Assembly (NCBI GenBank): GCA_905182765.1
Contig: CAJJCV010000038.1
Location: 1-48,830, forward strand
Reading direction: 5' to 3'
From: Cryomorphaceae bacterium BACL29 MAG-121220-bin8
GTDB lineage: Bacteria > Bacteroidota > Bacteroidia > Flavobacteriales > Flavobacteriaceae
Length of the DNA stretch: 48,830 bases
How positions within the stretch are numbered: position 1 is the stretch's first letter; each line of letters begins with the position of its first letter. This document shows positions 14,501 to 48,600 of this stretch, in pieces. The translations under genes were made by a program, and so were the position numbers. A model generated the notes under the pieces. It was not told the origin of the DNA. It was given only the letters and a program-made list of their open reading frames with translations, and did not search any database.

Positions 14501-16015
14501 ATTGAAGATTTATCTCAACTAATTTATGACTTAAAAAATGCTAACAGGGAAGCTAGAATAAATGTAAAATTAGTCTCTGAAGTTGGAGTTGGTACAATTG
14601 CTGCTGGAGTTGCTAAAGCTAAAGCTGATGTGATATTAATTTCAGGATTTGATGGAGGAACTGGAGCTTCTCCTTTAACTTCTCTTAAACATGCTGGTTT
14701 ACCTTGGGAACTTGGAATTGCTGAAGCCCAACAAACTTTAGTAATGAATGGACTTAGAGGAAGAATAGTTTTAGAATGTGACGGACAATTAAAGACAGGA
14801 AAAGATGTTGCTATAGCGTGTCTTTTAGGGGCAGAAGAGTTTGGATTTTCAACAGCTCCATTAGTTGCTTCAGGATGTATTATGATGAGAGCTTGCCACT
14901 TAAATACTTGTCCTGTGGGAATTGCTACTCAAGATCCTGAATTAAGAAAAAACTTTAAAGGAAAACCGGAGCATGTAATCAACTTCATGCATTTTGTTGC
15001 AGAAGAACTAAGAGAAATAATGGCAATACTTGGGTTTAGATCAATCAATGAAATGGTTGGGCAAAGTCAAAAAATAAACATGGAGGATGCTGTTAAAAAT
15101 TATAAAACTAAAGGAATAAATTTATCTAAGATTTTATATAAACCTGATGTTCCTAAAAATGTTTCATTAAAAAACAACTCTAAACAAAATCATAATCTTG
15201 AAAAAGTTATAGATTTTAAAATTTTATCAGAAGCAAAATTAGCAATTGAAAAAAAGGTTAAAATGAGTTTGTCCTACAAAATTCAAAATACAGATAGAAC
15301 TGTTGGAACAATTTTAAGCAATGAAATCTCAAAACTTTACGGAGCTAAAGGACTTCCAAATGACACATTGAAACTTAATTTTAAAGGTGCAGCTGGTCAA
15401 AGTTTTGGAGCTTTCAGCACCAAAGGTTTAACCATGAAAATCAGCGGAAATACAAATGATTATTTTGGGAAAGGACTTTCAGGAGCTAAAATTATTGTAA
15501 AAACACCTAAAGAATCAACTATTATTTCTCACAAGAATGTTATAACTGGAAATACAGCGCTTTATGGTGCCACCTCAGGAGAAGCTTATATAAATGGAAT
15601 TGCTGGAGAAAGATTTTGCGTAAGAAATTCTGGAGCCACAGCAGTTGTTGAAGGAGTTGGAGACCATGGGTGTGAATACATGACAGGTGGAATAGCACTA
15701 ATACTTGGAGATATAGGAAGAAATTTTGCCGCAGGAATGAGTGGAGGAATTGCATATATATATAAATCTGAGAAATTTGATAAAAGAAACTTTAACATGG
15801 AAATGATTGAGTTTGAAAATCCAAATGATCAAGATTTAGATTACATTAATAAATTAATTGAAAATCACTTTAGCTATACTTCTAGTAAATTAGCCGAAGA
15901 TCTTTTAATAAATTGGAATAAAGAGTCAAACAACTTTATTAAAATAATGCCTACAGAATATAAATTAGCTTTAGAAAAAATGGCTAAAGAAAAAATTACT
16001 GAAATAATCAAATAA
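11513..16015 (+). CDS. gltB: glutamate synthase (NADPH), large subunit
   Basis: This is a 1500-residue GOGAT large subunit, full length. After a short propeptide the catalytic nucleophile is Cys18 (DNCGAGF), the N-terminal glutaminase residue that frees ammonia. The middle contains the FMN-binding synthase domain (SGEGGEDPSRF, GAKPGEGGQLPGPKV, SPPPHHDIYSIEDL). The 3Fe-4S cluster motif reads ASGCIMMRACHLNTCPVGIA. The C-terminal glutamate-synthase beta-helix (GLSGAKIIV, GATSGEAYINGIAGERF) ends the protein. It converts 2-oxoglutarate plus glutamine into two glutamates. The operon continues with gltD 5 bases later. The upstream 204 bases hold a perfect 14-base palindrome (TTAAATCGATTTAA) that might be regulatory. 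Confidence 0.98.
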   Translation: MLPKKQGLYSPENEHDNCGAGFICSLKGEKTNDIIHKALNILTCLEHRGAVSSDGKTGDGAGILIEIPDDFFRKECSFELPEPQQYAVGMLFLPQKINQAKHCIDIFEKEIERQGLSILGWRDVPLNSKIVGSIAATTQPIIKQVFVGKNNIELTESEFSTKLFVARKISENEIYNTALSQKQYFYFSSLHHRTLIYKGLLIPEDIDQFYLDLSNPKLVTRLALVHQRFSTNTFPTWDLAQPFRYMCHNGEINTRRGNVTRMNAREELMKSDFIGKDLLKVFPTILDGKSDSSQMDMVVEILLTTGRSLPEVMMMMVPEAWEKHKSMSDEKKAFYEFNSCIMEPWDGPASIPFTDGKFIGAMLDRNGLRPSRYSVTKDGYVIMSSETGVVDIEPSNVEKHGRLEPGKMFLVDMIEGRIIEDEEIKNEIVSKHPYRKWLNQNTLPLMEVPYTGNKTPLEKLDFETRLRIFGYTEEDLKTIILPMCVSGKEAMGSMGTDTPLAVLSNKPQLLFNYFKQLFAQVTNPPLDGIREEIVTDTSLGLGSDYNIYDIVPEHCKKLKINNPIISNEDLDKIKFIKSKDFKTSSISALYDISKGHNGIEEALDKMVIDASKRIDEGYNIIILSDRGVSKKMGAVPILLACSNIHHCMMKLKKRSKFGIVIESSEPREPHHFSMLFGYGASAINPYMVNEIIAFHHKKNFFGDQSLKSSIQNFNKAIAKGILKVMNKIGISTLHSYRGSQIFEALGLRESFTEKYFSNTPTRIEGIGLYSLEKEYSKKHLDAFSKENSFMSLEIGGSYRWRRNGEAHMLNPSTISKLQQAVREDKFETYKVYSDLINKQNKQLMTLRGMFKFVNHDPIPIDEVEPWTEIVKRFKTGAMSYGSISKEAHENLAIAMNRIGGKSNSGEGGEDPSRFIKNANGVWKNSAIKQVASGRFGVSSHYLTNANEIQIKMAQGAKPGEGGQLPGPKVNPLIAKVRNSTPYVGLISPPPHHDIYSIEDLSQLIYDLKNANREARINVKLVSEVGVGTIAAGVAKAKADVILISGFDGGTGASPLTSLKHAGLPWELGIAEAQQTLVMNGLRGRIVLECDGQLKTGKDVAIACLLGAEEFGFSTAPLVASGCIMMRACHLNTCPVGIATQDPELRKNFKGKPEHVINFMHFVAEELREIMAILGFRSINEMVGQSQKINMEDAVKNYKTKGINLSKILYKPDVPKNVSLKNNSKQNHNLEKVIDFKILSEAKLAIEKKVKMSLSYKIQNTDRTVGTILSNEISKLYGAKGLPNDTLKLNFKGAAGQSFGAFSTKGLTMKISGNTNDYFGKGLSGAKIIVKTPKESTIISHKNVITGNTALYGATSGEAYINGIAGERFCVRNSGATAVVEGVGDHGCEYMTGGIALILGDIGRNFAAGMSGGIAYIYKSEKFDKRNFNMEMIEFENPNDQDLDYINKLIENHFSYTSSKLAEDLLINWNKESNNFIKIMPTEYKLALEKMAKEKITEIIK

Positions 16016-35279: not shown

Positions 35280-36584
35280 TTATTTTTTTCTAAAGAATAT
35301 TCTAATAGGCACTCCATTAAAATCATAAATCTCTCTTATTTTATTTTCTAAAAACCTTTTGTAAGGATCCTTAATGTATTGAGGAAGGTTACAGAAAAAT
35401 GCAAATTGAGGGAATGAAGAAGGGAGTTGAGTACAAAATTTAATTTTAACATACTTTCCTTTATACGCTGGTGGAGGCGTTTTTTCAATTATTGGAAGTA
35501 GGCATTCATTAAATTTTCTAGTAACGATTTTTTTTGATCTAGTTTTAAAGACTTCCATGGCAGTTTCAATAGCTTTGAAAATTCTTTGTTTTGTTAAACT
35601 AGATATGAATATAATTGGGACATCTGTAAAAGGCTCTAGTTCTTTTCTAATTTGCTCTTCGAAGAGTTTTATTGTATTTGTTTTTTTATCAACTAGATCC
35701 CATTTATTGACTAAAATCACAATCCCTTTATTATTTCTTTCAGCTAACCAAAAAATATTTTTCACTTGACTATCAAAAGATCTAGTAGCATCAAAAATTA
35801 TTAAACACACATCAGCATTTTCTATAGTTCTAATAGATCTAACAACTGAGTAAAATTCAACATCATCATTTATTTTAGATTTTTTTCTAATGCCAGCAGT
35901 GTCAATTAATTTAAAATCAAAGCCAAAACGATTAAAATGTGTGTCAATACTATCACGTGTTGTTCCAGCTAAATCCTTAACTACATAACGATCTATTCCA
36001 AGCAAAGCATTAATAAATGAAGACTTACCAGAATTAGGGCGACCAACTACAGCAAATCCTGGAATTTGATCATTTTCTATTACTGAATCTTCTGGCATTA
36101 ATGAAACTAATGAATCTAGTAATTCTCCTGTTCCTCCTCCATTAATCGAACTTATATTGAAGATTTTTTCAAAACCAAGTGAATGAAATTCAGTAGATTC
36201 TAATTGTCTTTTAGAATTATCTACTTTATTTACAGCAAGTAATACATCTTTACTGGATTTATGTAATAATCTTGAAATTTCACTATCCATAGAACTAATA
36301 CCTGTTTCAACATCAACAACAAAAACAACAATATCTGCTTCTTCAATAGCTATCATCACTTGAGCATTAATTTCTTTTTCAAAATTATCGTCTCCGCCTA
36401 GCATAAAACCTCCAGTATCGATAACAGTAAAATCCTTTCCGTTCCAAAATGAATAACCGTAGTGTCGATCTCTTGTTACACCACTTTGAGAATCAACAAT
36501 TGCATCTCTTTTTTGTATTAGTCTGTTAAAAAATGTTGACTTCCCGACATTTGGTCTTCCAACAATAGCTACAATAGAACTCAT
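35280..36584 (-). CDS. der: ribosome-assembly GTPase Der (EngA)
   Basis: This 434-residue protein has two consecutive GTPase domains. G1 of the first is VGRPNVGKSTFFNRL at about residue 8, with DTGGF (G3) and NKVD (G4). G1 of the second is VGRPNSGKSSFINALLG, with DTAGIRKK and NKWDLVD. A C-terminal KH-like domain follows (residues ~350-434). It acts in 50S subunit assembly. It is 50 bases downstream of era on the same strand, a common pairing. The start is ATG at 36584. Confidence 0.97.
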   Translation of the reverse strand: MSSIVAIVGRPNVGKSTFFNRLIQKRDAIVDSQSGVTRDRHYGYSFWNGKDFTVIDTGGFMLGGDDNFEKEINAQVMIAIEEADIVVFVVDVETGISSMDSEISRLLHKSSKDVLLAVNKVDNSKRQLESTEFHSLGFEKIFNISSINGGGTGELLDSLVSLMPEDSVIENDQIPGFAVVGRPNSGKSSFINALLGIDRYVVKDLAGTTRDSIDTHFNRFGFDFKLIDTAGIRKKSKINDDVEFYSVVRSIRTIENADVCLIIFDATRSFDSQVKNIFWLAERNNKGIVILVNKWDLVDKKTNTIKLFEEQIRKELEPFTDVPIIFISSLTKQRIFKAIETAMEVFKTRSKKIVTRKFNECLLPIIEKTPPPAYKGKYVKIKFCTQLPSSFPQFAFFCNLPQYIKDPYKRFLENKIREIYDFNGVPIRIFFRKK

Positions 36585-36634
36585 TATGAATTTTTTAAAA
36601 GGTGTACAAAACTAAACTTTTATTTTAATAAAAA

Positions 36635-37522
36635 TTATTTTTGATGATATCCGAATTTCTTAAGTTGATTCTCGTCAGAACGCCAGTTTTTATTAACCTT
36701 AACCTGAAGGTCTAGAAATATCTTTATATTGAAAAATTTTTCAATATCAATCCTGGCTTGAGTACCAACTTTTTTTATAGCAGCACCTTTATGACCAATT
36801 ATAATTCCTTTTTGGGAATCTCTTTCTACAATAATAATAGATCTGATCTTAATAATAGTTTCCTCTTCAAAGAAATCTTCAGTAACAACTTCAACAGAGT
36901 AAGGAATTTCTTTTTTAAAATTTAATAATATTTTTTCTCTAATTATCTCATTTACAAAAAAACGTTCACTCTTGTCGGTTAGTTGATCTTTAGGAAAATA
37001 AGGGGGTGATTCGGGACTTAATTCAACTAATCTATCTAATAATTTATCAATATTAAATGATTCTTTTACTGAAATTGGCCAAATCTCAGCATTTGGAACT
37101 TTGTTTTTCCAAAAATCTAACTCGAAATCTAGTTTTTCTTGGTCAATTAAATCAATTTTATTAATAATAATTAAAAGAGGAACTTTAATATTTACAATCT
37201 TATTAAATAAAGAATCGTCTTTTAAGTTATGATCTCTATACTCAACCATATATAAAAGGATGTCAGCATCTTCTGTGGCAGGCAATACAAAATCCATCAT
37301 AGACTTATGAAGTTTATGAGCTGGTTTAATTATACCTGGCGTGTCAGAAATTACTAGCTGAAAATCATCATTGTTAATAAGAGCCAAAATCCTATGTCTT
37401 GTAGTTTGCGCCTTTGAGGTGATTATAGATAACTTTTGACCTAACAAGAAATTAGTTAAGGAAGATTTACCAACGTTTGGATTACCTATAATATTTACAA
37501 AACTAGATTTATGCATACACAT
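36635..37522 (-). CDS. era: GTPase Era
   Basis: This 295-residue protein matures 16S rRNA and assembles the 30S subunit. The GTPase domain has IIGNPNVGKSSLTNFLLGQK (G1), TTRHRIL (switch I), DTPGIIKP (G3) and INKIDLID (G4). The C-terminal KH RNA-binding domain has GIIIGHKGAAIKKVGTQARI. The ATG at 37522 and a second in-frame ATG two codons later (37516) cannot be separated; I keep the longer one. It heads the era-der unit and lies next to the 422-base non-coding stretch. Confidence 0.96.
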   Translation of the reverse strand: MCMHKSSFVNIIGNPNVGKSSLTNFLLGQKLSIITSKAQTTRHRILALINNDDFQLVISDTPGIIKPAHKLHKSMMDFVLPATEDADILLYMVEYRDHNLKDDSLFNKIVNIKVPLLIIINKIDLIDQEKLDFELDFWKNKVPNAEIWPISVKESFNIDKLLDRLVELSPESPPYFPKDQLTDKSERFFVNEIIREKILLNFKKEIPYSVEVVTEDFFEEETIIKIRSIIIVERDSQKGIIIGHKGAAIKKVGTQARIDIEKFFNIKIFLDLQVKVNKNWRSDENQLKKFGYHQK

Positions 37523-37944
37523 GCGAATTTAAGATTGTTAATTAAGATTTAGAAGATTTTGCATAAAAATTAAATAATTTTTGAACAAAGCACAACATAA
37601 ACACCTTTACACTTAACAATTCACAAGTAATCTAAGAAAAAATTGTGAGAAGATGAATATAAGAGTAAAACGTGTTTTATATGTACAATAAAAAGAATAA
37701 TTTACCTATACAACACTTAAACATTTAAAATTATTAAAACAACACATATTAAACTAAAAAAAAAATTTCAGGTTAAAACAAAACATTTAATACTAAAAAA
37801 ACGGTTTTAATAAATGTAAAGGTTTTATAAACAAAATATAAAAATAATACGCCTATTTTTAAGATATAGTTCCTCAATAAAATAATATCGTGTTTAGGTT
37901 TGTAAACTAATAATTATTTGAGAAATACTGTTTTAAAATAAAAT
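37523..37944 (+). other. 422-base intergenic region ahead of the glucan operon
   Basis: No gene is seen on either strand. It serves as leader for both era (minus) and the glucan operon (plus). It is A/T rich with short repeats. AAACATTTAA occurs twice (37719-37728 and 37781-37790), GGTTTTA occurs twice (37803 and 37821), and there is one promoter-like motif with an inverted repeat at 37892-37907. Confidence 0.7.
37892..37907 (+). promoter_or_regulatory. promoter-like element with overlapping inverted repeat
   Basis: TAGGTTTG at 37895-37902 matches the Bacteroidota -7 TAnnTTTG. The perfect inverted repeat GTTTA-N6-TAAAC (37892-37907) overlaps it, the usual placing for a repressor or activator site. 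The operon start codon is 38 bases beyond the repeat. No -33 TTTG is clear. Confidence 0.35.
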
Positions 37945-40900
37945 ATGCCCGAAAAGATTTACGTTGGTGATTTAGAATCATTGTTCAATGATAAAAAAGT
38001 TGAAGGAAAACAATTAAAAATTGCAAATGAAAATTTTTATAAAATTTCCAATGTAGATAAAATGCGTCCATTCTTTATGAGTATTGTGAGCAATTCCAAT
38101 CATTGGATGTTCATTTCGAGCACAGGAAGTTTGTCTGCTGGAAGAAAAAATAGTGAATTCGCTCTTTTTCCTTATTACACCGATGATAAAATTACAGAAT
38201 CAAGCGAAACTACAGGAAGTAAAACTATTTTAGTTATAAAAATTGCTAATAAAAATTACTTATGGGAACCTTTTTCAAATAAATATTCTGGAGTTTACAA
38301 TATTTCAAGAAATATTTATAAAAACACTATTGGAAATAAAGTAATTTTTGAAGAAATCAATCATGATTTAAACGTTGAATTTAGTTACCAATGGAACTCA
38401 AGTAATAAATATGGTTTTGTTAGAAAATCATTTATAAAAAATACTTCAAAGAAAAGTATACAAATAAATATTCTTGACGGACTTCAAAATATTTTACCAT
38501 ACGGAGTAGGAGAAGGACTTCAAAATGCTCAAAGTAATTTAGTTGACGCATATAAAAAATGTGAATTAGAAAAAGAAAGTAAATTAGGAATCTTCACCCT
38601 TAGTGCTATTATAGTTGATAAAGCAGAGCCAAGTGAAGCATTAAAAGCAAACTCTTTATGGACAACTGAAATTAACAATACAAAACACCTCTTATCCTCT
38701 CTGCAGCTTGATGATTTCAGAAAGGGAATTAGCTTGAAAAGTGAAAATGAAATTAAAGCTGAAAAAGGTGCTTATTTCATAAATAAGAAAATTGAGTTAA
38801 AAGAAAATTCTTCTAATGATTGGATGATTATTTGTAATGTTAACCAAACAATTTCTGATGTTGTTAGCTTAAAAAAATCAATAATTGAAGATAAAGAAAT
38901 CCGATCTGAAGTTGAAAATGACATAGTACTAGGTTCATCAAACTTAAGAGAACTAGTTGGAAATGCTGATGGATTACAGCTAACTAATGATAAACTTAGA
39001 ATGATTAGACATTTTTCTAATTCAATGTTTAATATAATGAGAGGAGGTATTTTTGATGATAATTATCAAATAGAAAAAAATGACTTTCTACCCTATTTAA
39101 GTAAAGCGAATTTCTCAATTTACCAGTCTTTTAATGAAACTCTTAATAATCTTCCTGATACTTTTAGTTTACATTATTTAAAATCAATTTCAGAAAATAT
39201 CTCAAATCATGATTTTAAAAGGTTGTGTACAGAATATCTACCATTAAAATTTAGCAGAAGGCATGGTGATCCAAGCAGACCTTGGAATAAGTTTTCAATT
39301 AATACTAAAAGTGAAATAGATGGATCTAAAATTTTGGATTACCAGGGAAATTGGAGAGATATTTTTCAAAATTGGGAAGCCTTAGCATATTCATATCCTC
39401 AATTTATTGAGGGAATGATTCATAAATTCTTAAATTCCACAACTTTTGACGGATACAATCCATACAGAGTCACAAAGGATGGATTTGATTGGGAAACCAT
39501 TGAACCAGATAACCCTTGGTCATACATAGGTTACTGGGGAGATCATCAAATTATTTATCTTTTAAAATTTTTAGAATTCATTGAAAATCACTTCCCTAAG
39601 AAACTATACAAATATTTTTCAAAAAGTTTGTTTGTATATGCCAATGTCCCTTATAAAATTAAATCTTATGAAAAGATTCTAAAAGACTCTAAAAATACAA
39701 TTGATTACGATCATCAAAATGAATTATTAATTAAAAAAAGAAGAGGTGAAATTGGAATTGACGGATCATTAGTACACAATAAAAATTCTGAAATTTACAG
39801 AGTAAACTTTATAGAAAAGATTTTAGCGACTTTACTTTCAAAAGTTTCAAATTTTGTACCTGAAGGCGGAATATGGATGAATACTCAAAGACCTGAGTGG
39901 AATGACGCAAACAACGCATTAGTTGGTAATGGAATTTCAATGGTAACTTTATATTATCTGAGAAGATTTGTTAATTTTTTTAATTCATTATTAGAAAAAA
40001 CTGACCTTATTTCGGTTGAAATTTCTTCTGAATTAAACAAGTTTTTTAATGATATTTATTTTGCTTTAAGTGAAAATAACAAAGTTATTAACTCATCAAT
40101 TTCTGATTATGACAGAAAAAAAATAGTTGACTTACTTGGTACAGCAGGCTCAAATTATAGAAATAAAATTTACGACAATAGTTTTTCTGGAATTAAATCT
40201 GCAATTGGAATAAAAGAAATTACGGAATTCACACAACTTCTTCTAAAATATATAGATCATTCTATTGATTCCAATAAAAGAAGTGATAAGCTTTACCATG
40301 CTTACAATCTATTAACTATAAATGAAGATAAAATATCAGTTTCACACTTGCCAGAAATGCTTGAAGGCCAAGTTGCTGTTTTAAGTTCTGGATATTTAAG
40401 TTCAAAAGAAAACTTAGAAGTTTTAGATGCTCTTAAGTCTAGTTCATTATTTAGAGAAGATCAATATAGTTATATACTTTACCCTGATAAAGATTTAGGC
40501 TTATTCTTAGACAAAAACACTATTCCTTCTTCAAAAGTCAATGGATCTAAATTGTTAAAAGAATTATTGAATGATGGAAATGAACAAATTGTTTCAAAAG
40601 ACTGTGAGGGTGTTTACCATTTTAATTGTGATTTTAATAATGCAAATGGATTAATAAGTGAATTGAATTTGTTGCCAGAAAAATATCATGAACTTGTAAA
40701 GGATGAATACAATAAAATTCTTGGGGTTTTTGAAGACGTATTTAACCATAAAGAATTTACTGGTCGATCTGGAACTTTCTTTGGATATGAAGGACTAGGT
40801 TCAATATACTGGCACATGGTATCTAAACTTTCGTTAGCTGTTTTAGAAACTACTAAGAAGGCTTTAAAAGAAAATGACAAAAATTTAGTTGGAAGATTTT

Positions 40901-41394
40901 TTGATCACTACTTTGAAGTTTTAGAAGGAATTGGAGTTAATAAATCACCTAAACTATATGGTGCTTTTCCAACTGATCCCTACTCTCATACTCCTGCAGG
41001 CAAAGGAGCTCAACAACCAGGAATGACTGGTCAAGTTAAAGAAGATTTCATTTGTAGATTTGGAGAGCTTGGCGTTGAAATAAATGAAGGGATCTTAAGC
41101 TTCAACCCAATTATGCTAAGAAATGAAGAATTTTTAAAAACTCAAGAAACCTTTAGATATGTAAATATCTCTAAAGAGAAATCTTTATTAGAAATAGAAA
41201 AAAATTCATTGTGTTTCACATATTGTCAAGTTCCAATAATCTATTTAAAAGCTTTAGAAAATAAAATCACAGTTCAACTTAACGATGGAAACATTATAAA
41301 TTTTAAAGACAATCAATTAAATAAAGAAACAAGTGCTTCGATTTTCAATAGAGATAATAAAATCAATAAAATAACAGTATCAATTGTAAAATGA
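37945..41394 (+). CDS. beta-1,3-glucan phosphorylase, GH149-like
   Basis: This 1149-residue protein has no signal peptide, so it is cytoplasmic. It has an N-terminal beta-sandwich domain with GH94-like features (SNSNHWMFISSTGSLSAGRK), an (alpha/alpha)6 catalytic part with GNWRDIFQNWEALA, NPWSYIGYWGDHQIIYLLK and PEWNDANNALVGNGISMVTL, and a late block with GRSGTFFGYEGLGSIYWHM and HTPAGKGAQQPGMTGQ that resembles the phosphate-binding region of the phosphorylase group. Length and motifs fit GH149, whose known members phosphorolyse beta-1,3-glucan chains to glucose 1-phosphate; GH94 members are shorter. It is the first gene of the operon, and its TGA overlaps the ATG of the next gene (ATGA). Confidence 0.82.
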   Translation: MPEKIYVGDLESLFNDKKVEGKQLKIANENFYKISNVDKMRPFFMSIVSNSNHWMFISSTGSLSAGRKNSEFALFPYYTDDKITESSETTGSKTILVIKIANKNYLWEPFSNKYSGVYNISRNIYKNTIGNKVIFEEINHDLNVEFSYQWNSSNKYGFVRKSFIKNTSKKSIQINILDGLQNILPYGVGEGLQNAQSNLVDAYKKCELEKESKLGIFTLSAIIVDKAEPSEALKANSLWTTEINNTKHLLSSLQLDDFRKGISLKSENEIKAEKGAYFINKKIELKENSSNDWMIICNVNQTISDVVSLKKSIIEDKEIRSEVENDIVLGSSNLRELVGNADGLQLTNDKLRMIRHFSNSMFNIMRGGIFDDNYQIEKNDFLPYLSKANFSIYQSFNETLNNLPDTFSLHYLKSISENISNHDFKRLCTEYLPLKFSRRHGDPSRPWNKFSINTKSEIDGSKILDYQGNWRDIFQNWEALAYSYPQFIEGMIHKFLNSTTFDGYNPYRVTKDGFDWETIEPDNPWSYIGYWGDHQIIYLLKFLEFIENHFPKKLYKYFSKSLFVYANVPYKIKSYEKILKDSKNTIDYDHQNELLIKKRRGEIGIDGSLVHNKNSEIYRVNFIEKILATLLSKVSNFVPEGGIWMNTQRPEWNDANNALVGNGISMVTLYYLRRFVNFFNSLLEKTDLISVEISSELNKFFNDIYFALSENNKVINSSISDYDRKKIVDLLGTAGSNYRNKIYDNSFSGIKSAIGIKEITEFTQLLLKYIDHSIDSNKRSDKLYHAYNLLTINEDKISVSHLPEMLEGQVAVLSSGYLSSKENLEVLDALKSSSLFREDQYSYILYPDKDLGLFLDKNTIPSSKVNGSKLLKELLNDGNEQIVSKDCEGVYHFNCDFNNANGLISELNLLPEKYHELVKDEYNKILGVFEDVFNHKEFTGRSGTFFGYEGLGSIYWHMVSKLSLAVLETTKKALKENDKNLVGRFFDHYFEVLEGIGVNKSPKLYGAFPTDPYSHTPAGKGAQQPGMTGQVKEDFICRFGELGVEINEGILSFNPIMLRNEEFLKTQETFRYVNISKEKSLLEIEKNSLCFTYCQVPIIYLKALENKITVQLNDGNIINFKDNQLNKETSASIFNRDNKINKITVSIVK

Positions 41395-42689
41395 AAAAAA
41401 ACCTAATAAATAGAATAAATTTCAAGGTTATTAGTAACTATATTTTGCTTTTACTTCTAAACTCTATTTTACTTACTTCGTGTAGTTCAAATGATGAAAA
41501 AAAAATGAAAGTGAAAGAAATTACAGCTCAAGAGATTTTAAATAATCCTGAGTATTTAGCAATTTCTTATGGAGGATATAGAAAAAATACAAGGGATATA
41601 CAACCTACTATTGATGAACTGAAAGAAGATCTTCAAGTACTTTCATCAATTGGAATAAAAATACTTAGGACTTATAATCTACAGTTAGATCAAGCTCCTA
41701 ATATTTTAAAAGCAATTACAGAATTAAAACATGCAAATCCTAAATTTGAGATGTATGTTATGCTTGGTGCATGGATTGATTGTGAAAATGCATGGACAGA
41801 AAATCCAGACCATACAAAGGAAAACGAATCTGCAAATGCTATTGAAATACAAAAAGCAATAAACCTAGCAAATCAATATCCTGAAATTATAAAAATTATT
41901 GCTGTCGGAAACGAAGCTATGGTAAACTGGGCATGGAGTTATTATGTTGAACCTTCTGTTATATTAGGGTGGGTGAACCATCTTCAAGATCTAAAAAAAC
42001 AAAAAAAACTTCCTGAAAATTTATGGATAACAAGTTCAGATAATTTTGCTGCTTGGGGAGGCGGTGAAGAATCTTATCACACTAACGATCTAAATTCTCT
42101 AATAAAAGCTGTTGATTACATTTCTATGCATACATATGCTTTCCACGACACTCATTACAATTCTGATTTTTGGAATCTTGAGAAAGAGCCTAAAGACCAA
42201 AATTATGACTTAGAAATAATTAACCAGGCAATGGATAGTGTTCACAATTATTCAATATATCAATATAATAGTGTGAAAAATTATCTTAAAAAAATTGGCG
42301 TAGATAAACAAGTACATATTGGAGAATTAGGTTGGTCTACAAAATCTAATAGAAATTACGGAAGAAATGGATCTCGTGCTGCTGACGAATATAAACAGGC
42401 TGTATTCCATGATAAAATTAGAAAATGGACAAAAAAAGAAAAAATTGCTTGTTTTTATTTTTCAGCATTTGATGAATCTTGGAAAGACTTTTCAAATACA
42501 AATGGTTCGGAAAATCATTTTGGGCTTTTTACTGTTGATGGTAAAGCAAAATATGCTTTATGGAAAAATGTTGACAATGGTGATTTCAAGGGATTAACTA
42601 GAAATGGTAATTCAATTACAAAAACATATAACGGAAATAGCGAAGATCTTTTAAATAATGTCTTAACTCCGTCTGTCAAAAATCAATAG
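41391..42689 (+). CDS. GH17 beta-1,3-glucanase lipoprotein
   Basis: This 432-residue protein has a long signal with lipobox LLTSC (Cys31) followed by SSNDEKK, an acidic tail that may help surface export in Bacteroidota. The GH17 TIM barrel spans residues ~50-395. The catalytic acid/base is Glu175 in IAVGNEAMVNWAW and the nucleophile is Glu312 in HIGELGWSTKSN. The conserved late stretch FYFSAFDESWKDF is present. GH17 enzymes of this type cut internal or terminal beta-1,3-glucosidic bonds, as in laminarin. Translationally coupled to the phosphorylase; the next gene starts 1 base after its stop. Confidence 0.88.
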   Translation: MKKNLINRINFKVISNYILLLLLNSILLTSCSSNDEKKMKVKEITAQEILNNPEYLAISYGGYRKNTRDIQPTIDELKEDLQVLSSIGIKILRTYNLQLDQAPNILKAITELKHANPKFEMYVMLGAWIDCENAWTENPDHTKENESANAIEIQKAINLANQYPEIIKIIAVGNEAMVNWAWSYYVEPSVILGWVNHLQDLKKQKKLPENLWITSSDNFAAWGGGEESYHTNDLNSLIKAVDYISMHTYAFHDTHYNSDFWNLEKEPKDQNYDLEIINQAMDSVHNYSIYQYNSVKNYLKKIGVDKQVHIGELGWSTKSNRNYGRNGSRAADEYKQAVFHDKIRKWTKKEKIACFYFSAFDESWKDFSNTNGSENHFGLFTVDGKAKYALWKNVDNGDFKGLTRNGNSITKTYNGNSEDLLNNVLTPSVKNQ

Positions 42690-42690
42690 T

Positions 42691-43701
42691 ATGAAATTAA
42701 AATATTTTAATATTATTTTTTTATTAATCTTTTTTGTGGGATGTAATGATTTTAATGAAATTAAAAATGATGTTATTTCAATTTCTGAAAGAAGCTTGTT
42801 AATTAATAACAAAAAGTATTTTATTAAAGGAATATGCTATCATCCAGTTCCTAAAGGGAGTACTGAAAGAAGTTTTGAAAATATTGATATTGATCTATCA
42901 TTAATGGTTGATGCTGGGATAAATACAGTAAGAGTATATGAACCAATTGATGATGTAAAAATATTAGACAAAATTGAACAGGCTGGGTTAAAAATTATTA
43001 TTGGATTTGGATATGATCAGAACGGATATTATGATATACTTTCAGGAACTTATATTGATTACGTTGAAAAATATAAAAACCACAATTCTATATTATTTTG
43101 GGAGTTAGGAAATGAATATAATTACCACCCTGAATGGTTTGAAAATGATATTATTAATTGGTACACCGCTTTAAATAATACTGCTGGAAAAATTCAAGAA
43201 ATAGATAAAAGCAAACCAGTATCGACGGCTCATGGTGAAATTCCAGATAATTTAGCTATTTCTTCACTTGATAATATCGATGTTTGGGGACTGAATATCT
43301 ACAGGTGGGATAATCCTTCTCCTGTTTTTGACGAATGGAAATCAATAAGCTCAAAACCGATGTATCTATCTGAAGCAGGAAGTGATAGCTACATGACAAT
43401 CGAAAGACTTGGGTATTCAAAAGGAGAAAATCAATTGGCACAAGCAGATGCAAATTCAAAAATCTTAAATGCAGTTTTTAAAAACTCGAATATAGTTTCT
43501 GGAGTTCTTGTTTTTCAATTTACTGATGGTCTTTGGAAGTCTGGGAATCCTGAAAAGCAAGATATTGGTGGATGGGCACCAAATAGTATAGGTGTTCCAT
43601 ATGATGGATCACCAAACGAAGAGTTTTGGGGAATTGTAGATATTGACAGAAAGAAAAAGAAATCATTTGATGTAATAAAAGAAAAATTTAATAATAATTA
43701 A
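42691..43701 (+). CDS. clan GH-A glycoside hydrolase lipoprotein (GH2/GH5-like TIM barrel)
   Basis: This 336-residue protein has a lipobox (FFVGC, Cys18). A (beta/alpha)8 barrel follows: ISERSLLINNKKYFIKGICY resembles the entry of GH2 and GH5 barrels, and NTVRVYEP is the first conserved arginine strand. The acid/base glutamate is Glu142 in FWELGNEYNY and the nucleophile is Glu228 in MYLSEAGSD. I cannot name the family with certainty (GH2 TIM barrel without the sugar-binding domains, GH5, or a newer beta-glucanase family such as GH158). The operon context suggests a beta-glucan substrate. It lies between the GH17 and GH30 genes with gaps of 1 base. Confidence 0.75.
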   Translation: MKLKYFNIIFLLIFFVGCNDFNEIKNDVISISERSLLINNKKYFIKGICYHPVPKGSTERSFENIDIDLSLMVDAGINTVRVYEPIDDVKILDKIEQAGLKIIIGFGYDQNGYYDILSGTYIDYVEKYKNHNSILFWELGNEYNYHPEWFENDIINWYTALNNTAGKIQEIDKSKPVSTAHGEIPDNLAISSLDNIDVWGLNIYRWDNPSPVFDEWKSISSKPMYLSEAGSDSYMTIERLGYSKGENQLAQADANSKILNAVFKNSNIVSGVLVFQFTDGLWKSGNPEKQDIGGWAPNSIGVPYDGSPNEEFWGIVDIDRKKKKSFDVIKEKFNNN

Positions 43702-43702
43702 A

Positions 43703-45190
43703 ATGCATATTTCAAAACACCTCTTAATGATATGTCTTTTAATCTTTATAAGCTCATGTAGTAATAATTCTGATATTATGATTAAAGTTTACGAGACCTC
43801 AAGAGAAGGAAATAAATTAACGGAACAAACGGATTTTGAAATTGGTGATAGTGTTTCAATAATAAAAATAAATACTAACAAAAAATATCAAACAATTACA
43901 GGATTTGGTGGAGCTTTCACAGAATCATCGGCATATTTATTAAACCAGATGAGCGATGCCAAAAGAAAAGAAATTATTGATGCTTATTTTTCAGAGAATG
44001 GATCGAATTACTCCTTAACTAGAACTCACATGAACTCTTGTGATTTTTCTCTTTCAAATTATTCTTATAGTCCAATTGAGAATGACAAGGAGCTTAAACA
44101 CTTTTCTGTTAAAGAGGATATGGATGATATAATCCCAATGATAAAAGATGCACAAGAAGCTTCTAAAGATGGTTTTAAAATTTTTGCTTCACCTTGGACT
44201 GCTTCTCCTTGGATGAAGGACAATAATGATTGGCGAGGAGGAAAATTACTTCCAGAATATTATGATACATGGGCGTTATTTTTTTCTAAATATGTTGATG
44301 AATATAAAGCTCAAGGAATTGACATTTGGGGATTTACAGTTGAAAACGAACCTCACGGGAACAATTCAAGTTGGGAAAGTATGCATTACTCGCCTGATGA
44401 AATGACAAATTTTGTGAAAAACTTTTTAGGACCTCAGCTTGAAAGAGATGGAAAAGGAGATCTTATTATTCTAGGTTATGATCAAAACAGAGCGGATTTA
44501 AAAAACTGGGTCGATTCAATGTATGAAAATGAAGAATCCTCTAAATATTTTGATGGAACAGCCGTTCATTGGTACGACAGTACTTTCGAGTACTATCCTG
44601 ACGAATTACAATATGCTCATAACAAAGCTCCAAACAAATATCTTATCCAAACTGAAGCTTGCATAGACTCTGAAGTTCCACAATGGGAAGATGACGATTG
44701 GTACTTTAGAAAAGAAGCTACTGACTGGGGATACGATTGGAGAGAAGATGAGAAAAAATATTTGCATCCAAAGTATGCGCCATTCAATAGATACTCTAGA
44801 GACATTATTGGATCATTAAACAACTGGGTAGATGGTTGGGTAGATTGGAATATGGTGCTTGATACGCAAGGTGGACCAAACTGGGTAAATAATTGGTGCG
44901 TAGCTCCAATAATTGTTGATCCAAATCAAGATGAAATATACTATACTCCTCTGTATTATGTAATGACTCATTTCAGCAAATACATAAGACCTGGTGCTGA
45001 GATAATTGATGTAGAAAACAATGACTCGGATTTAATGGTAACAGCAGCTCAAAACCCAGATAATAGTATCGCTGTCGTATTATTTAATGAAGGAAAAGAT
45101 GAAAAAAGCTTTAATATCAAATTAAATGAATATTCAAAAATTATAACAATTAGTCCTCAAGCAATTCAAACTGTGATAATTAATCAATAA
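43703..45190 (+). CDS. GH30 glycoside hydrolase lipoprotein (beta-glucan debranching candidate)
   Basis: This 495-residue protein has a lipobox (LIFISSC, Cys19). The barrel has TITGFGGAFTESSAYLL near the start, the acid/base Glu216 in TVENEPHGNN, the nucleophile Glu318 in LIQTEACIDS, and a small beta-domain at the end (SIAVVLFNEGKDEKSF). It belongs to GH30 (GH30_1/GH30_3-like; glucosylceramidase-like). Related marine flavobacterial enzymes remove beta-1,6-linked glucose side chains from laminarin, so debranching is the likely role here. The ATG lies 1 base after the previous stop. Confidence 0.87.
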   Translation: MHISKHLLMICLLIFISSCSNNSDIMIKVYETSREGNKLTEQTDFEIGDSVSIIKINTNKKYQTITGFGGAFTESSAYLLNQMSDAKRKEIIDAYFSENGSNYSLTRTHMNSCDFSLSNYSYSPIENDKELKHFSVKEDMDDIIPMIKDAQEASKDGFKIFASPWTASPWMKDNNDWRGGKLLPEYYDTWALFFSKYVDEYKAQGIDIWGFTVENEPHGNNSSWESMHYSPDEMTNFVKNFLGPQLERDGKGDLIILGYDQNRADLKNWVDSMYENEESSKYFDGTAVHWYDSTFEYYPDELQYAHNKAPNKYLIQTEACIDSEVPQWEDDDWYFRKEATDWGYDWREDEKKYLHPKYAPFNRYSRDIIGSLNNWVDGWVDWNMVLDTQGGPNWVNNWCVAPIIVDPNQDEIYYTPLYYVMTHFSKYIRPGAEIIDVENNDSDLMVTAAQNPDNSIAVVLFNEGKDEKSFNIKLNEYSKIITISPQAIQTVIINQ

Positions 45191-45195
45191 AAAAT

Positions 45196-46623
45196 ATGGA
45201 AACCAATATCAATAAAGTTAAGGGAGTTGGAATGGGTCAGAAAATAGCTTTTGGTTTTGGAATGCTAGCAAATCAAATGTTTCCTGCTGCATTAGGTGTT
45301 TTTATTATTGTTCTTGTTCAAGATCTTGGTTTTGCCGCACTATTATGGGGAATAATACAATTCGCTCCCAGAATATTTGATGCAATAACTGATCCTTTAA
45401 TGGGATTTATTTCTGACAACACTAAGTCTAAATGGGGAAGACGTCGACAATATGTTTTTATTGGTGGTATAATAATGGGAATTGCTTATGTAGCTATGTG
45501 GCAACTTTATGAAGATGATGGAGTTTTATATAATTTTATTTATTTCTTTTCATGGTCTTTAGTATTCTATTTAGGTCTAACTATTTTTAGCGTTCCTTAT
45601 GTAGCTATGGGTTATGAAATAAGTGATGATTTTCATGAGCGTACTCAAATTATGGCTATTGCTCAATTCATAGGACAATGGGCATGGGTAATTGCTCCAT
45701 GGTTCTGGGTTATACTTTATGATCCAGCTTGGTTTCCTGATGGAGCTGGACAAGGAGTCAGAGATTTATCTGTTTGGGTGGCAATTCCGTGTACTATTTT
45801 TGCGCTTATACCTGCGATTTTCATAAAAAGCAAATCAACAAAAGATAGAACAGATTTTGTCCCAATCAATGCAAATTATATTTTAAGAAGTATAAAAGGA
45901 ATATTTATTTCAGCGTTTGAAGCGTTCAAAATAAAGCAATTCAAAAAAATTGCATTCGCTACATTTTTAATATTTAACTCATTTCAAGTTATTGCTGCAT
46001 TTACTTTTCTTATAATAGTACACTATATGTTTAACAGTGATCCTGCAAGTGCAGGTAACTGGCCAGCACTTCACGGATGTATTGGAGCTTTAATAACATC
46101 ATTCTTAATCATACCATTGATAACTGTTGTTTCAAATAAAATAGGAAAAAAGAAGGCTTTTATTGTATCACAATTAATTTCGATAATCGGGTATATTTTA
46201 TTTTGGTTTTTATTTGTTCCTGGAAAACCTTATTTATTTTTATTTGCTCTACCATTCCATTCATTTGGGATTGGTAGCTTATTCACAATTATGATGTCAA
46301 TGACTGCGGATATCTGCGATCTTGACGAATTAGAAAATGGTAAAAGACGTGAAGGTGTAATTGGTGCAGTTTACTGGTGGATGGTTAAGCTAGGTTTTGG
46401 AGTTGCTGCTTTACTGAGTGGGTTCATTTTATGGTTAGTTGGATTTGACCCTGATTTAGTTACAGAATCAGCAACCACAGGGATGCGTTTATTTTATACT
46501 TTTTTGCCTATTTGTGGTGTGATTGGTGCTATTTATATAATGAAAGATTACGATATCACAGAAGAAAGAGCTAATGAAATAAAAAAAGAATTAGCTATTA
46601 GAAAATCAAAAAATAAAATTTAA
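45196..46623 (+). CDS. GPH-type sugar:cation symporter (MFS)
   Basis: This 475-residue inner-membrane protein has about 12 hydrophobic helices. The GPH/MelB-like loop ITDPLMGFISDNTKSKWGRR (with the charged cation-coupling positions) lies after helix 2, and IPLITVVSNKIGKKKAF is its half-repeat. The C-terminal ADICDLDELENGKRREGVI is the typical late GPH motif. It would import the products of the upstream lipoprotein hydrolases, probably beta-glucan oligosaccharides or glucose, with H+ or Na+. It follows the GH30 gene by 5 bases and precedes the leaderless GH17 genes by 7, so it divides exported from cytoplasmic enzymes. Confidence 0.9.
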   Translation: METNINKVKGVGMGQKIAFGFGMLANQMFPAALGVFIIVLVQDLGFAALLWGIIQFAPRIFDAITDPLMGFISDNTKSKWGRRRQYVFIGGIIMGIAYVAMWQLYEDDGVLYNFIYFFSWSLVFYLGLTIFSVPYVAMGYEISDDFHERTQIMAIAQFIGQWAWVIAPWFWVILYDPAWFPDGAGQGVRDLSVWVAIPCTIFALIPAIFIKSKSTKDRTDFVPINANYILRSIKGIFISAFEAFKIKQFKKIAFATFLIFNSFQVIAAFTFLIIVHYMFNSDPASAGNWPALHGCIGALITSFLIIPLITVVSNKIGKKKAFIVSQLISIIGYILFWFLFVPGKPYLFLFALPFHSFGIGSLFTIMMSMTADICDLDELENGKRREGVIGAVYWWMVKLGFGVAALLSGFILWLVGFDPDLVTESATTGMRLFYTFLPICGVIGAIYIMKDYDITEERANEIKKELAIRKSKNKI

Positions 46624-46630
46624 AATTATT

Positions 46631-47515
46631 ATGTCTTACAGAAAAGAAAAGATTCATTCTTTAACAGGCATTAATCTTAATAACATATCTAATGATGAAT
46701 TAAAAAGTCTTTGTAAAAAACACCTAGATAAAGGTATTCACGGTTTATGTTTTAGTGCATATGATGAAGGTCAAGAACCAGGAGATCAAATTTCAGATGA
46801 CCAAATAAGAAGAAAATTAAAAATCATAAAACCCTATATTAAGTGGATAAGAACTTTTTCTTGTAAAGATGGAAACGAAAGAATCCCTGTAATTGCTAAA
46901 AAACTTGGAATAAAGACTTTAGTTGGAGCATGGCTTAGTGATAATAAATCAACAAATGAAAAAGAAATCAAGGGTTTAATATCATTATGTAATTCAGGGA
47001 ACGTAGATATTGCTGCTGTTGGAAATGAGGTGCTTTACAGAAAAGAATTAACAGAAGAAGAACTAATAAGCTACATTATAAAAGTAAAAAAAGAAATCAA
47101 AGGAATTCCTACTGGATATGTAGATGCATATTATGAATTTCCTAAAAGGCCTAAACTTACTGAATGTTGTGATGTTATTTTAGCTAATTGTTATCCTTAT
47201 TGGGAAGGTTGTAGCTTAGACTATTCACTTATGTATATGAAACAAATGTACAATGAGGCTTTAACTGCTGGAAATGGAAAGAAAGTTATAGTTACAGAAA
47301 CTGGATGGCCAAGTCAAGGTGCAAGTCTTGAAGGTGCGCATCCTTCTAAGGAAAATGCACTAAAATATTTTATTAATTCTCAAAATTGGTCATTTGAAGA
47401 TAAGATAGAAATGTTTTATTTTTCATCTTTTGATGAGTCCTGGAAAGTTGGAGTCGAAGGAGACGTGGGAGCTTACTGGGGACTTTGGGATAAATATGAA
47501 AACTTAAAATTTTAA
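46631..47515 (+). CDS. GH17-family beta-1,3-glucosidase/glucanase, no signal peptide
   Basis: This 294-residue protein starts at ATG 46631 with a soluble, charged N-terminus (SYRKEKIHSLTGINL), so it looks cytoplasmic. The minimal GH17 TIM barrel includes LCFSAYDEGQEPGD, KWIRTFSCKDG, the acid/base Glu133 in AAVGNEVLYRKEL, the nucleophile Glu223 in IVTETGWPSQG (the GH17 signature seen also in plant enzymes) and MFYFSSFDESWKV near the end. It probably hydrolyses or transglycosylates imported laminari-oligosaccharides next to the cytoplasmic phosphorylase. It ends 5 bases before the second leaderless GH17. Confidence 0.85.
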   Translation: MSYRKEKIHSLTGINLNNISNDELKSLCKKHLDKGIHGLCFSAYDEGQEPGDQISDDQIRRKLKIIKPYIKWIRTFSCKDGNERIPVIAKKLGIKTLVGAWLSDNKSTNEKEIKGLISLCNSGNVDIAAVGNEVLYRKELTEEELISYIIKVKKEIKGIPTGYVDAYYEFPKRPKLTECCDVILANCYPYWEGCSLDYSLMYMKQMYNEALTAGNGKKVIVTETGWPSQGASLEGAHPSKENALKYFINSQNWSFEDKIEMFYFSSFDESWKVGVEGDVGAYWGLWDKYENLKF

Positions 47516-47520
47516 ATTAA

Positions 47521-48453
47521 TTGGATTACTCAAAAATATTAAACATAAATTCTGGAAATGCTGTATGCTATTCTGGATACAGAGAAGGTCAAACACCAGG
47601 CATATCCTTCCCTACTTACAATCAAGTTAAAGAGGATTTATTAATTATTGAAAAAAACTGGAAATACATAAGATTGTACAGTTGTGATCATCATTCAAAA
47701 ACTGTTTTAGAAGTTATAGAACAAGAGAAGTTTAATATAAAAGTAATGCTTGGTTGTTATATTGAAGCAGAGGTAAACAATTATTCTTGTCCTTGGGGTG
47801 GCGAACACTCAGTTGAGAAACTAGAACTTAATAAAAAAGGTAATTTAAATAGAGTTAATTTACTTTCTGAATTAGCGAATACTTATCCTAATATAATTTT
47901 TTCACTCTCTGTTGGAAATGAAGCATGCGTTAGTTGGACTGATCATATGGTTCCAGTAGAAAGTGTGATTGAATATGTGAAAATTGTAAAAAAGAAAGCT
48001 AAACAACCAGTAACATTTTGTGAAAACTATGTTACTTGGGTAAACAAATTAGAAAAACTTGTAGATGTTTTAGATTTTATTTCAATTCACACCTATCCAC
48101 AGTGGGAAAATGTGTTTATTGATGATGCTATAAACTATACAATAGAAAATTACAATCTTGTAAAAAAAAGGTATCCTAATAAACTGATTGTTATAACTGA
48201 AGCTGGATGGGCAACTTCAACAAATGATATTGAAATAAAAAAATATAACACAAACGAACATTTTCAAAAGATCTATTACAAACAACTTTCTAAATGGAGT
48301 GAAGATGAAAAAATTCTAACGTTTGTATTTGAAGCATTCGACGAACCATGGAAAGGTTCAGATGATCCTAACGAGCCTGAAAAACATTGGGGTCTATTTA
48401 ATGAAGATCGAACACCAAAACACACAATGAAGGAAGAAGTTTATAAGAAATAA
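47521..48453 (+). CDS. second GH17-family enzyme without signal peptide
   Basis: This 310-residue protein starts at TTG 47521; an in-frame TAA lies directly before it and there is no other early start that keeps the conserved AVCYSGYREGQTPG. No signal or membrane segment is present. The GH17 acid/base is Glu134 in LSVGNEACVSW and the nucleophile is Glu227 in VITEAGWATSTN. LTFVFEAFDEPWKG ends the barrel. It is only distantly alike the 46631 copy and closer in its N-terminal pattern to the lipoprotein GH17 of this operon, so this is not a recent tandem copy of its neighbour. It is the last gene of the operon. Confidence 0.85.
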   Translation: MDYSKILNINSGNAVCYSGYREGQTPGISFPTYNQVKEDLLIIEKNWKYIRLYSCDHHSKTVLEVIEQEKFNIKVMLGCYIEAEVNNYSCPWGGEHSVEKLELNKKGNLNRVNLLSELANTYPNIIFSLSVGNEACVSWTDHMVPVESVIEYVKIVKKKAKQPVTFCENYVTWVNKLEKLVDVLDFISIHTYPQWENVFIDDAINYTIENYNLVKKRYPNKLIVITEAGWATSTNDIEIKKYNTNEHFQKIYYKQLSKWSEDEKILTFVFEAFDEPWKGSDDPNEPEKHWGLFNEDRTPKHTMKEEVYKK

Positions 48454-48516: not shown

Positions 48517-48589
<73 letters not shown>

Positions 48590-48600
48590 CTAAAACAATA

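Follow-up and report, generated by a model that had tools for sequence, protein, structure and literature searches.

A seven-gene operon in the stretch of DNA studied here seems to be the detached half of a system for degrading laminarin, tied to its other half by a shared DNA switch. The stretch, hereafter the window, is the entire contig C38 (48830 nt) of genome G000, a 1.396-Mb, ~80% complete assembly whose apparent source is a small marine bacterium. We consider it quite probable that the operon provides the inner enzymes of the laminarin system, that the importer half lies elsewhere, and that the two are co-switched through a direct-repeat element. The importer half would lie on the chromosome and consist of a regulator, SusC, SusD, a PKD protein, and a glycoside hydrolase family 16 (GH16) enzyme. 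Genomes, contigs, and loci are numbered with the prefixes G, C, and L; congeners are other genomes of the same genus.

A check of the open reading frames (ORFs) in the window recovered seven intact genes on the plus strand between 37945 and 48453, separated by -4, 1, 1, 5, 7, and 5 bases. This agrees with an earlier reading of the window (the original prediction), which had described seven plus-strand genes with gaps of 7 bases or less. Signal-peptide and lipobox assignments, including those of three lipoproteins, are pattern matches. The genes are as follows:

37945..41394, plus strand: gene 1, GH149 beta-1,3-glucan phosphorylase, 1149 amino acids (aa) (NCBIfam, structure match)
41391..42689, plus strand: gene 2, GH17 endo-laminarinase, lipoprotein by pattern, 432 aa (Pfam, 6fcg match)
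42691..43701, plus strand: gene 3, clan GH-A glycosidase related to GH2/GH158, 336 aa (Pfam, alignment, model)
43703..45190, plus strand: gene 4, GH30 lipoprotein by pattern, 495 aa (Pfam)
45196..46623, plus strand: gene 5, predicted GPH/MFS sugar symporter of the inner membrane, 475 aa (Pfam MFS_2)
46631..47515, plus strand: gene 6, signal-less GH17, 294 aa (Pfam)
47521..48453, plus strand: gene 7, signal-less GH17 of a second subtype, 310 aa, TTG start (Pfam)

The identical seven genes occur in the same order and at the same place in four congeners (L102, L104, L106, and L109), and the operon is therefore neither a chance arrangement nor an assembly artefact. Contigs of two more congeners (L105 and L108) are broken inside it. 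No SusC or SusD was found within the window, operon included, or beside the operon in congeners with the same form, and a Pfam search of the seven products did not place GH16 among their families.

The product of gene 1 scored 1758.9 bits against the NCBIfam model for GH149 (NF058639; cut-off 1150), matching model positions 2–1133 of 1134, so the GH149-type assignment of the original prediction holds. Its nearest solved structure is Pro_7066 (6hq6, E = 0). The residues WND, RD, E951, and H959 of Pro_7066, for which catalytic roles are given in PMC6771811 (excerpts of the papers cited by PMC number are meant throughout), are all identical in gene 1 in alignments; the offset in residue numbering, counted by hand, is 19. 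At the surface site, E994 is kept, Y993 is replaced by F, and E990 by D among the residues examined. No export signal was seen with the signal pattern, in agreement with the phosphorolysis inside the cell of the original prediction. GH149 enzymes phosphorolyse beta-1,3-gluco-oligosaccharides (PMC5827456, PMC6484121). Phosphorolysis by gene 1 would be expected, as would co-transcription of the operon and a saving of ATP. Family membership and orthology to Formosa enzymes likewise favor the proposed substrate, a beta-1,3-glucan such as laminarin.

Counting that of the window, 10 of the genus's 22 genomes contain GH149, which occurs in two operon forms. Seven of the ten share the window's form, in each case next to era-der, with all seven genes present in five (the window, L102, L104, L106, and L109). 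The edges of the operon in the window are:

35280..37522, minus strand: der and era, conserved neighbors at the upstream edge, adjoining the operon in 7/7 genomes of this form
48517..48590, plus strand: tRNA-Met at the downstream edge, after which the contig ends at 48830

The second form is found in three genomes (G008, G010, and G020). In G008 and G010, a SusC-SusD-PKD-292 aa-GH16 series leads straight into GH149-GH17A-GH-A and then the MFS gene; GH30 is present in G010 but not in G008, and the contig of G020 is broken upstream. The two forms are sister clades in a GH149 tree (support of 97 in an SH-like approximate likelihood ratio test, quick method), apart from a Schleiferiaceae clade. 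In six congeners that lack the window's form (G006, G007, G008, G010, G015, and G016), no such operon was found in the available stretch beside era (L210–L215). One locus of the SusC/D-linked form (L006 18696–19013) has a 105-aa ORF after the MFS gene that resembles the start of GH5-CBM6 by eye; it has no Pfam match and is perhaps a trace of rearrangement.

Homologues of the SusC of the second form occur across the genus at 78–90% identity, with a broken copy in G015 at 71–78%. They include four of the six genomes that share the window's operon form (G002, G009, G013, and G014), where SusC is encoded on another contig (80–82%) and followed by SusD and a PKD protein. A Y_Y_Y/GerE-type regulator (Pfam on the G014 protein) precedes SusC in G002, G009, and G014; at locus L198 the regulator is encoded at 12504–15275 on the minus strand. 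Where the contig continues, in G009 and G014, the next protein shares 66–68% identity with the GH16/PKD protein of L007; GH16 was called by Pfam on the L007 protein and by similarity to it in L198 and L200. A GH5-CBM6 protein follows the GH16-like protein in G014, a content that matches the third laminarin variant, GH5_46 with CBM6 plus GH16 (PMC6794258). The original prediction had outer-membrane uptake supplied from elsewhere, which the SusC at another place in these congeners bears out; its description of the route as self-contained does not stand, with the importer and a GH16 encoded at a second locus. In one congener that has no GH149 (L205 8394–10798, G015:C4), SusC is broken by several stops and the regulator is in pieces, and the downstream SusD, PKD, GH16-like, and GH3-like genes stay open.

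In the window's own genome, contig C36 (6708 bases) carries six consecutive homologues of the left flank of this locus, in order and at 66–76%, and ends within the regulator at 742 of 924 aa, just short of SusC. Because C36 stops where SusC should begin, the SusC/D genes of this organism are probably unassembled rather than absent, and their absence was dropped as the leading view. The original prediction that SusC/D is lacking is thus correct for the operon's locus and probably wrong for the organism. Contigs of two further congeners break nearby, early in the regulator in G004 and just before it in G001.

The two loci share a direct repeat. When the regions upstream of GH149 and of SusC were aligned, both showed a similar direct repeat of CTATACA, and a matrix trained on nine SusC-upstream sites was used to score both strands of the entire window. 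Its two best positions both lie within the 422-base gap before GH149:

37705..37724, plus strand: element CCTATACAACACTTAAACAT, proposed operator; the window's top matrix score (11.2 bits) and an exact match to the genus pattern
37814..37833, minus strand: second, inverted copy of the element; second-best matrix score (9.7 bits)

The third-best position (7.7 bits) is inside a gene. A search of the 22 genus genomes with the pattern CTATACANNACYTAWACAT, allowing up to one mismatch, produced 14 matches, seven of them before GH149 (7/7 genomes with the window's form) and seven before a laminarin-type SusC, the one in G020 being judged by the adjoining end of the regulator. The reversed pattern, used as a control, produced three.

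A second matrix, built from 13 genus sites, was tested on 78 other GH149 loci. It reached at least 17 bits in 20 of them, and in 19 of these the site is 50–350 bases upstream of a gene. Sixty column-shuffled matrices reached this score in a mean of 2.1 loci (maximum 10), with a mean of 0.13 upstream of a gene (maximum 1), and a matrix with reversed columns did so in three loci, none upstream of a gene. When the region before GH149 was scored in 16 further chosen loci, L038 had 19.3 bits, L039 had 13.7, 13 had 8.1 or less, and the upstream sequence of L051 was too short to score. A looser pattern, drawn from loci already seen and allowing one mismatch, gave 53 matches in 20 genomes, compared with 23 for its reversed control. 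Thirty match loci were examined: 11 are adjacent to a regulator gene, after which comes a laminarin-type SusC in five cases and a GH2-like gene in six, four are beside a GH16-like gene, three are behind the last GH17 of a cluster, and 12 have no laminarin gene recognized with eight query proteins. The 20 genomes contain 15 exact matches, 11 inside GH149 loci, two before SusC at 4.5 and 7 kb outside such loci (G043 and G049), and the remaining two elsewhere (G041 C11 and C49). Several copies of the element are present in, for example, the Polaribacter of L073 and the Seonamhaeicola of L054.

Its position and recurrence suggest that the element acts as an operator. We lean, by a modest degree, toward reading the 20-base repeat (CTATACA with an 11-base period) as the operator of a laminarin-specific Y_Y_Y/LuxR-type regulator across marine Flavobacteriia, with SusC/D-less clusters as detached parts of its regulon. 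A trans-acting switch of this kind would hold the regulon together, and the SusC/D-GH16 and GH149-GH17-GH30-MFS halves could therefore separate and lie anywhere. Among the papers listed by full-text searches of the literature, none was titled on a laminarin operator or regulator.

Several points weigh against a split and co-switched system. The sites in the window score 11.2 and 9.7 bits, compared with 22–31 for the training sites; the element was first noticed by eye, and the expressions for the training sites were written after both sets had been viewed. The genus pattern misses the SusC promoters of G007, G008, G010, G011, and G015, where looser versions occur, as well as the one in G013, where the contig begins inside SusC. 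Scores were below 17 bits in 58 of the 78 other GH149 loci, and no copy of the element was found before GH149 at the SusC/D-less loci of Schleiferiaceae/Cryomorphaceae. No laminarin-type SusC was found in the window's 1.396-Mb assembly, where the best full-length match is 32%, and none was found in G001 and G004; the argument from the contig end for its presence is indirect. GH149 of the SusC/D-linked congeners is 64–65% identical to the window's, and their era is 77–78% identical. Within the window's form, GH149 identity is 81–85% and era identity 77–90%, with three genomes of this form having an era no nearer than that of the second form (77–79%). On these figures, in which GH149 diverges more than era, the two forms may be something other than plain rearrangements of a single locus.

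This divergence suits another explanation, in which the operon was acquired independently, as a portable module that has moved between lineages and whose link to SusC/D is incidental. The SusC/D-less GH149 operons of Schleiferiaceae/Cryomorphaceae (L012–L014) also lie beside era-der, upstream of it and in the same direction, and among the 93 GH149 loci scanned only these and the seven loci of the window's form have era-der within reach. We regard a portable module as unlikely, given that the two genus forms are sister clades in the GH149 tree, apart from the Schleiferiaceae clade, and that the shared element ties the two loci. The element itself might be a general promoter feature of AT-rich genomes rather than a laminarin operator. 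Its inverted copy before SusC overlaps a sequence resembling the Bacteroidota -7 box, around two in five of the loose matches may be noise judging by the control, and laminarin genes went unrecognized at 12 of the 30 match loci. A general promoter feature would be expected far more often, and the stricter pattern occurs at laminarin loci only (14/14) in the 22 congeners, which makes this explanation very improbable.

It is also conceivable that a laminarin SusC/D is truly missing from the organism, which would then take up small laminari-oligosaccharides released by others via another TonB-dependent receptor or a porin. Besides the missing laminarin-type SusC, this would fit the 15 matches to the Plug domain in the genome, 14 of them above cut-off. 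SusC/D pairs do occur outside the window, on C12 and C40, and neither provided a laminarin-type SusC. The pair on C12 could serve as an alternative receptor; no sugar-degrading cluster was seen beside it, and a GH3 gene is ~7 kb away. True absence is nevertheless quite unlikely in an assembly that is 80% complete and whose contig C36 stops at the expected position of SusC, and with a SusC/D locus present in four of the six congeners that have the operon. The pair on C40 (L004) was rejected as a laminarin importer: its neighbors were read by eye as GH43-, symporter-, xylulokinase-, and xylose isomerase-like genes, a probable xylan locus. The only GH16 match in the assembly is a weak one (26.1 bits) on C28 (L216 6243–7100), beside an MFS-like gene.

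The remaining six products were assigned by Pfam to GH17 (genes 2, 6, and 7), GH30 (gene 4), and MFS_2 (gene 5), with gene 3 having Glyco_hydro_2_C as its sole match above cut-off (38.5 bits) and no other GH2 domain. Gene 2 matches the GH17 enzyme 6fcg with E = 2.6e-159; 6fcg is presumably FbGH17A, and gene 2 appears to be a close relative of this characterized laminarinase. The AlphaFold2 model of gene 3 is a TIM barrel (predicted local distance difference test score 80.7, predicted template modeling score 0.82), and its best Foldseek matches are the GH158 structure 9p26 (Pro; E = 3.7e-14) and the GH2 structure 6ncw, at ~20% identity. E142 and E228 are invariant in an alignment of 14 sequences and lie next to strand 134–139 and within strand 224–229 of the model, respectively; they are the likely catalytic pair. 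The TIM barrel and this pair place gene 3 in clan GH-A, whose members have two catalytic glutamates after strands 4 and 7; the gene may be the "GH0" that papers place in the same slot. The lipobox pattern is missing from gene 3 in several congeners.

Gene 4 scored 257.4 bits against Glyco_hydro_30, 234.7 bits against the endo-1,6-beta-glucanase model NF053856 (below its cut-off of 700), and 794 bits against the gene at the same place in a Formosa metagenome-assembled genome (MAG; L017). By similarity it is likely a debranching beta-1,6-glucosidase like FbGH30. Gene 5 scored 193 bits against MFS_2 and 171.6 bits against the GPH model TIGR00792, under the cut-off of 231. Gene 6 is 58% identical to the GH17 domain of an MFS fusion and 60% identical to a free-standing GH17, both of the Formosa Hel1_33_131 MAG (L017). 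A broken fusion as the origin of the MFS and GH17 genes was ruled out, the two being separate genes in many loci. Gene 7 shares ~28% identity with gene 6 and 31% with gene 2, and outside the congeners its close relatives (at least 404 bits) are in L016, L019, L020, L062, L063, and L067. Genes 6 and 7 could each be a hydrolase or a transglycosylase, because the free GH17B of Muricauda is termed a transglycosylase (PMC13188888).

These assignments are consistent with a route that would start with products of the other locus, GH16 cleaving laminarin at the surface and SusC/D taking it up. The GH30 enzyme would strip beta-1,6 glucose branches, and the GH17A lipoprotein would cleave the beta-1,3 backbone into oligosaccharides. 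The GPH symporter would carry oligosaccharides or glucose into the cytoplasm, where the two signal-less GH17 enzymes may trim or rearrange oligosaccharides and GH149 would phosphorolyse them to glucose 1-phosphate. Both loci would be switched on jointly through the element, to which the Y_Y_Y/LuxR-type regulator encoded next to SusC would most likely bind. Enzymes of one Formosa cluster act on laminarin sequentially, with FbGH30 removing beta-1,6 branches, FbGH17A cutting the debranched chain, and FbGH17B freeing glucose (PMC6246565).

GH149 loci without a neighboring SusC/D were common in the sample, which was drawn from named genomes and comprised the 80 closest of at least 586 confirmed loci. 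At least 9.5 kb of upstream sequence was available for 55 of the 80, and SusC and SusD were both absent within ~10 kb in 37 of these, an upper bound, with at least one of the two present in the other 18. Nine of the 37 were extended by ~20 kb per side: SusC/D lies 14–17 kb upstream of GH149 in L054 and L073, a pair with lower scores lies downstream in L032, and the other six still had no SusC/D to ~30 kb. Clusters with GH149 and no susCD were on record in 2018 (PMC5827456), and a variant 1 laminarin polysaccharide utilization locus (PUL) from an NS4 MAG, likewise lacking susCD, was described in 2023 (PMC10108472). The arrangement is neither new nor rare, contrary to what the original prediction had implied. 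One locus of this survey, L022, is on a contig labeled Rhodobacteraceae; its GH149 groups with those of Formosa-like Flavobacteriaceae, and it is likely mis-binned.

Laminarin, an algal storage sugar, is among the ocean's largest sugar pools, and organisms that use it are often recognized by SusC/D adjoining laminarinase genes. Should clades with small genomes house the system at two separate sites, counts based on SusC/D would miss them or label them as oligosaccharide scavengers. A conserved operator, if true, would allow the laminarin regulon as a whole to be traced by sequence, with all laminarin genes of a genome open to discovery, and would make the regulator directly testable.

The gene content of the operon is that of the already known variant B/1 laminarin cluster, with at least two GH17, a GH30 (assigned at family level), and an MFS gene in one cluster with GH149. 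GH149, GH17A, GH30_1, MFS, and GH17 are likewise found in the variant B/1 PULs of Formosa Hel1_33_131, Polaribacter, and Cd. Prosiliicoccus; the string GH149-GH0-GH30_1-GH17 has been published for variant 1 (PMC10108472), and variant B combines GH16 and GH30_1, in many cases alongside two GH17 (PMC6794258). Unlike these PULs, the operon has no attached SusC/D or GH16, is placed beside era-der, has separate MFS and GH17 genes rather than the common fusion, and carries an extra GH17 of a second subtype. The Muricauda PUL resembles it in its GH17A-GH30_1-MFS-GH17B order, its GH2 gene, and the GH149 of most clusters, and many of the clusters have a LuxR-annotated first gene; in contrast to the operon, the Muricauda locus is contiguous, includes GH16, and has a GH30_1 without a signal peptide, where that of the operon has a lipobox by pattern (PMC13188888). 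As in Maribacter, the laminarin genes are not in one PUL, but the Maribacter strains use GH16_3 and GH3, with no GH17 or GH30 and no shared element mentioned in the excerpted text (PMC11345257). The closest precedents for the missing SusC/D are the clusters of PMC5827456, where GH149 occurs with GH3 and/or GH30_1 and GH17 and/or GH16, and the variant 1 PUL of NS4 MAG W_MB115 (PMC10108472). What distinguishes the operon from both, and what is new here, is that the missing half has been placed in close relatives, that its absence from the window's genome has a likely cause in the assembly, and that a shared DNA element joins the two halves.

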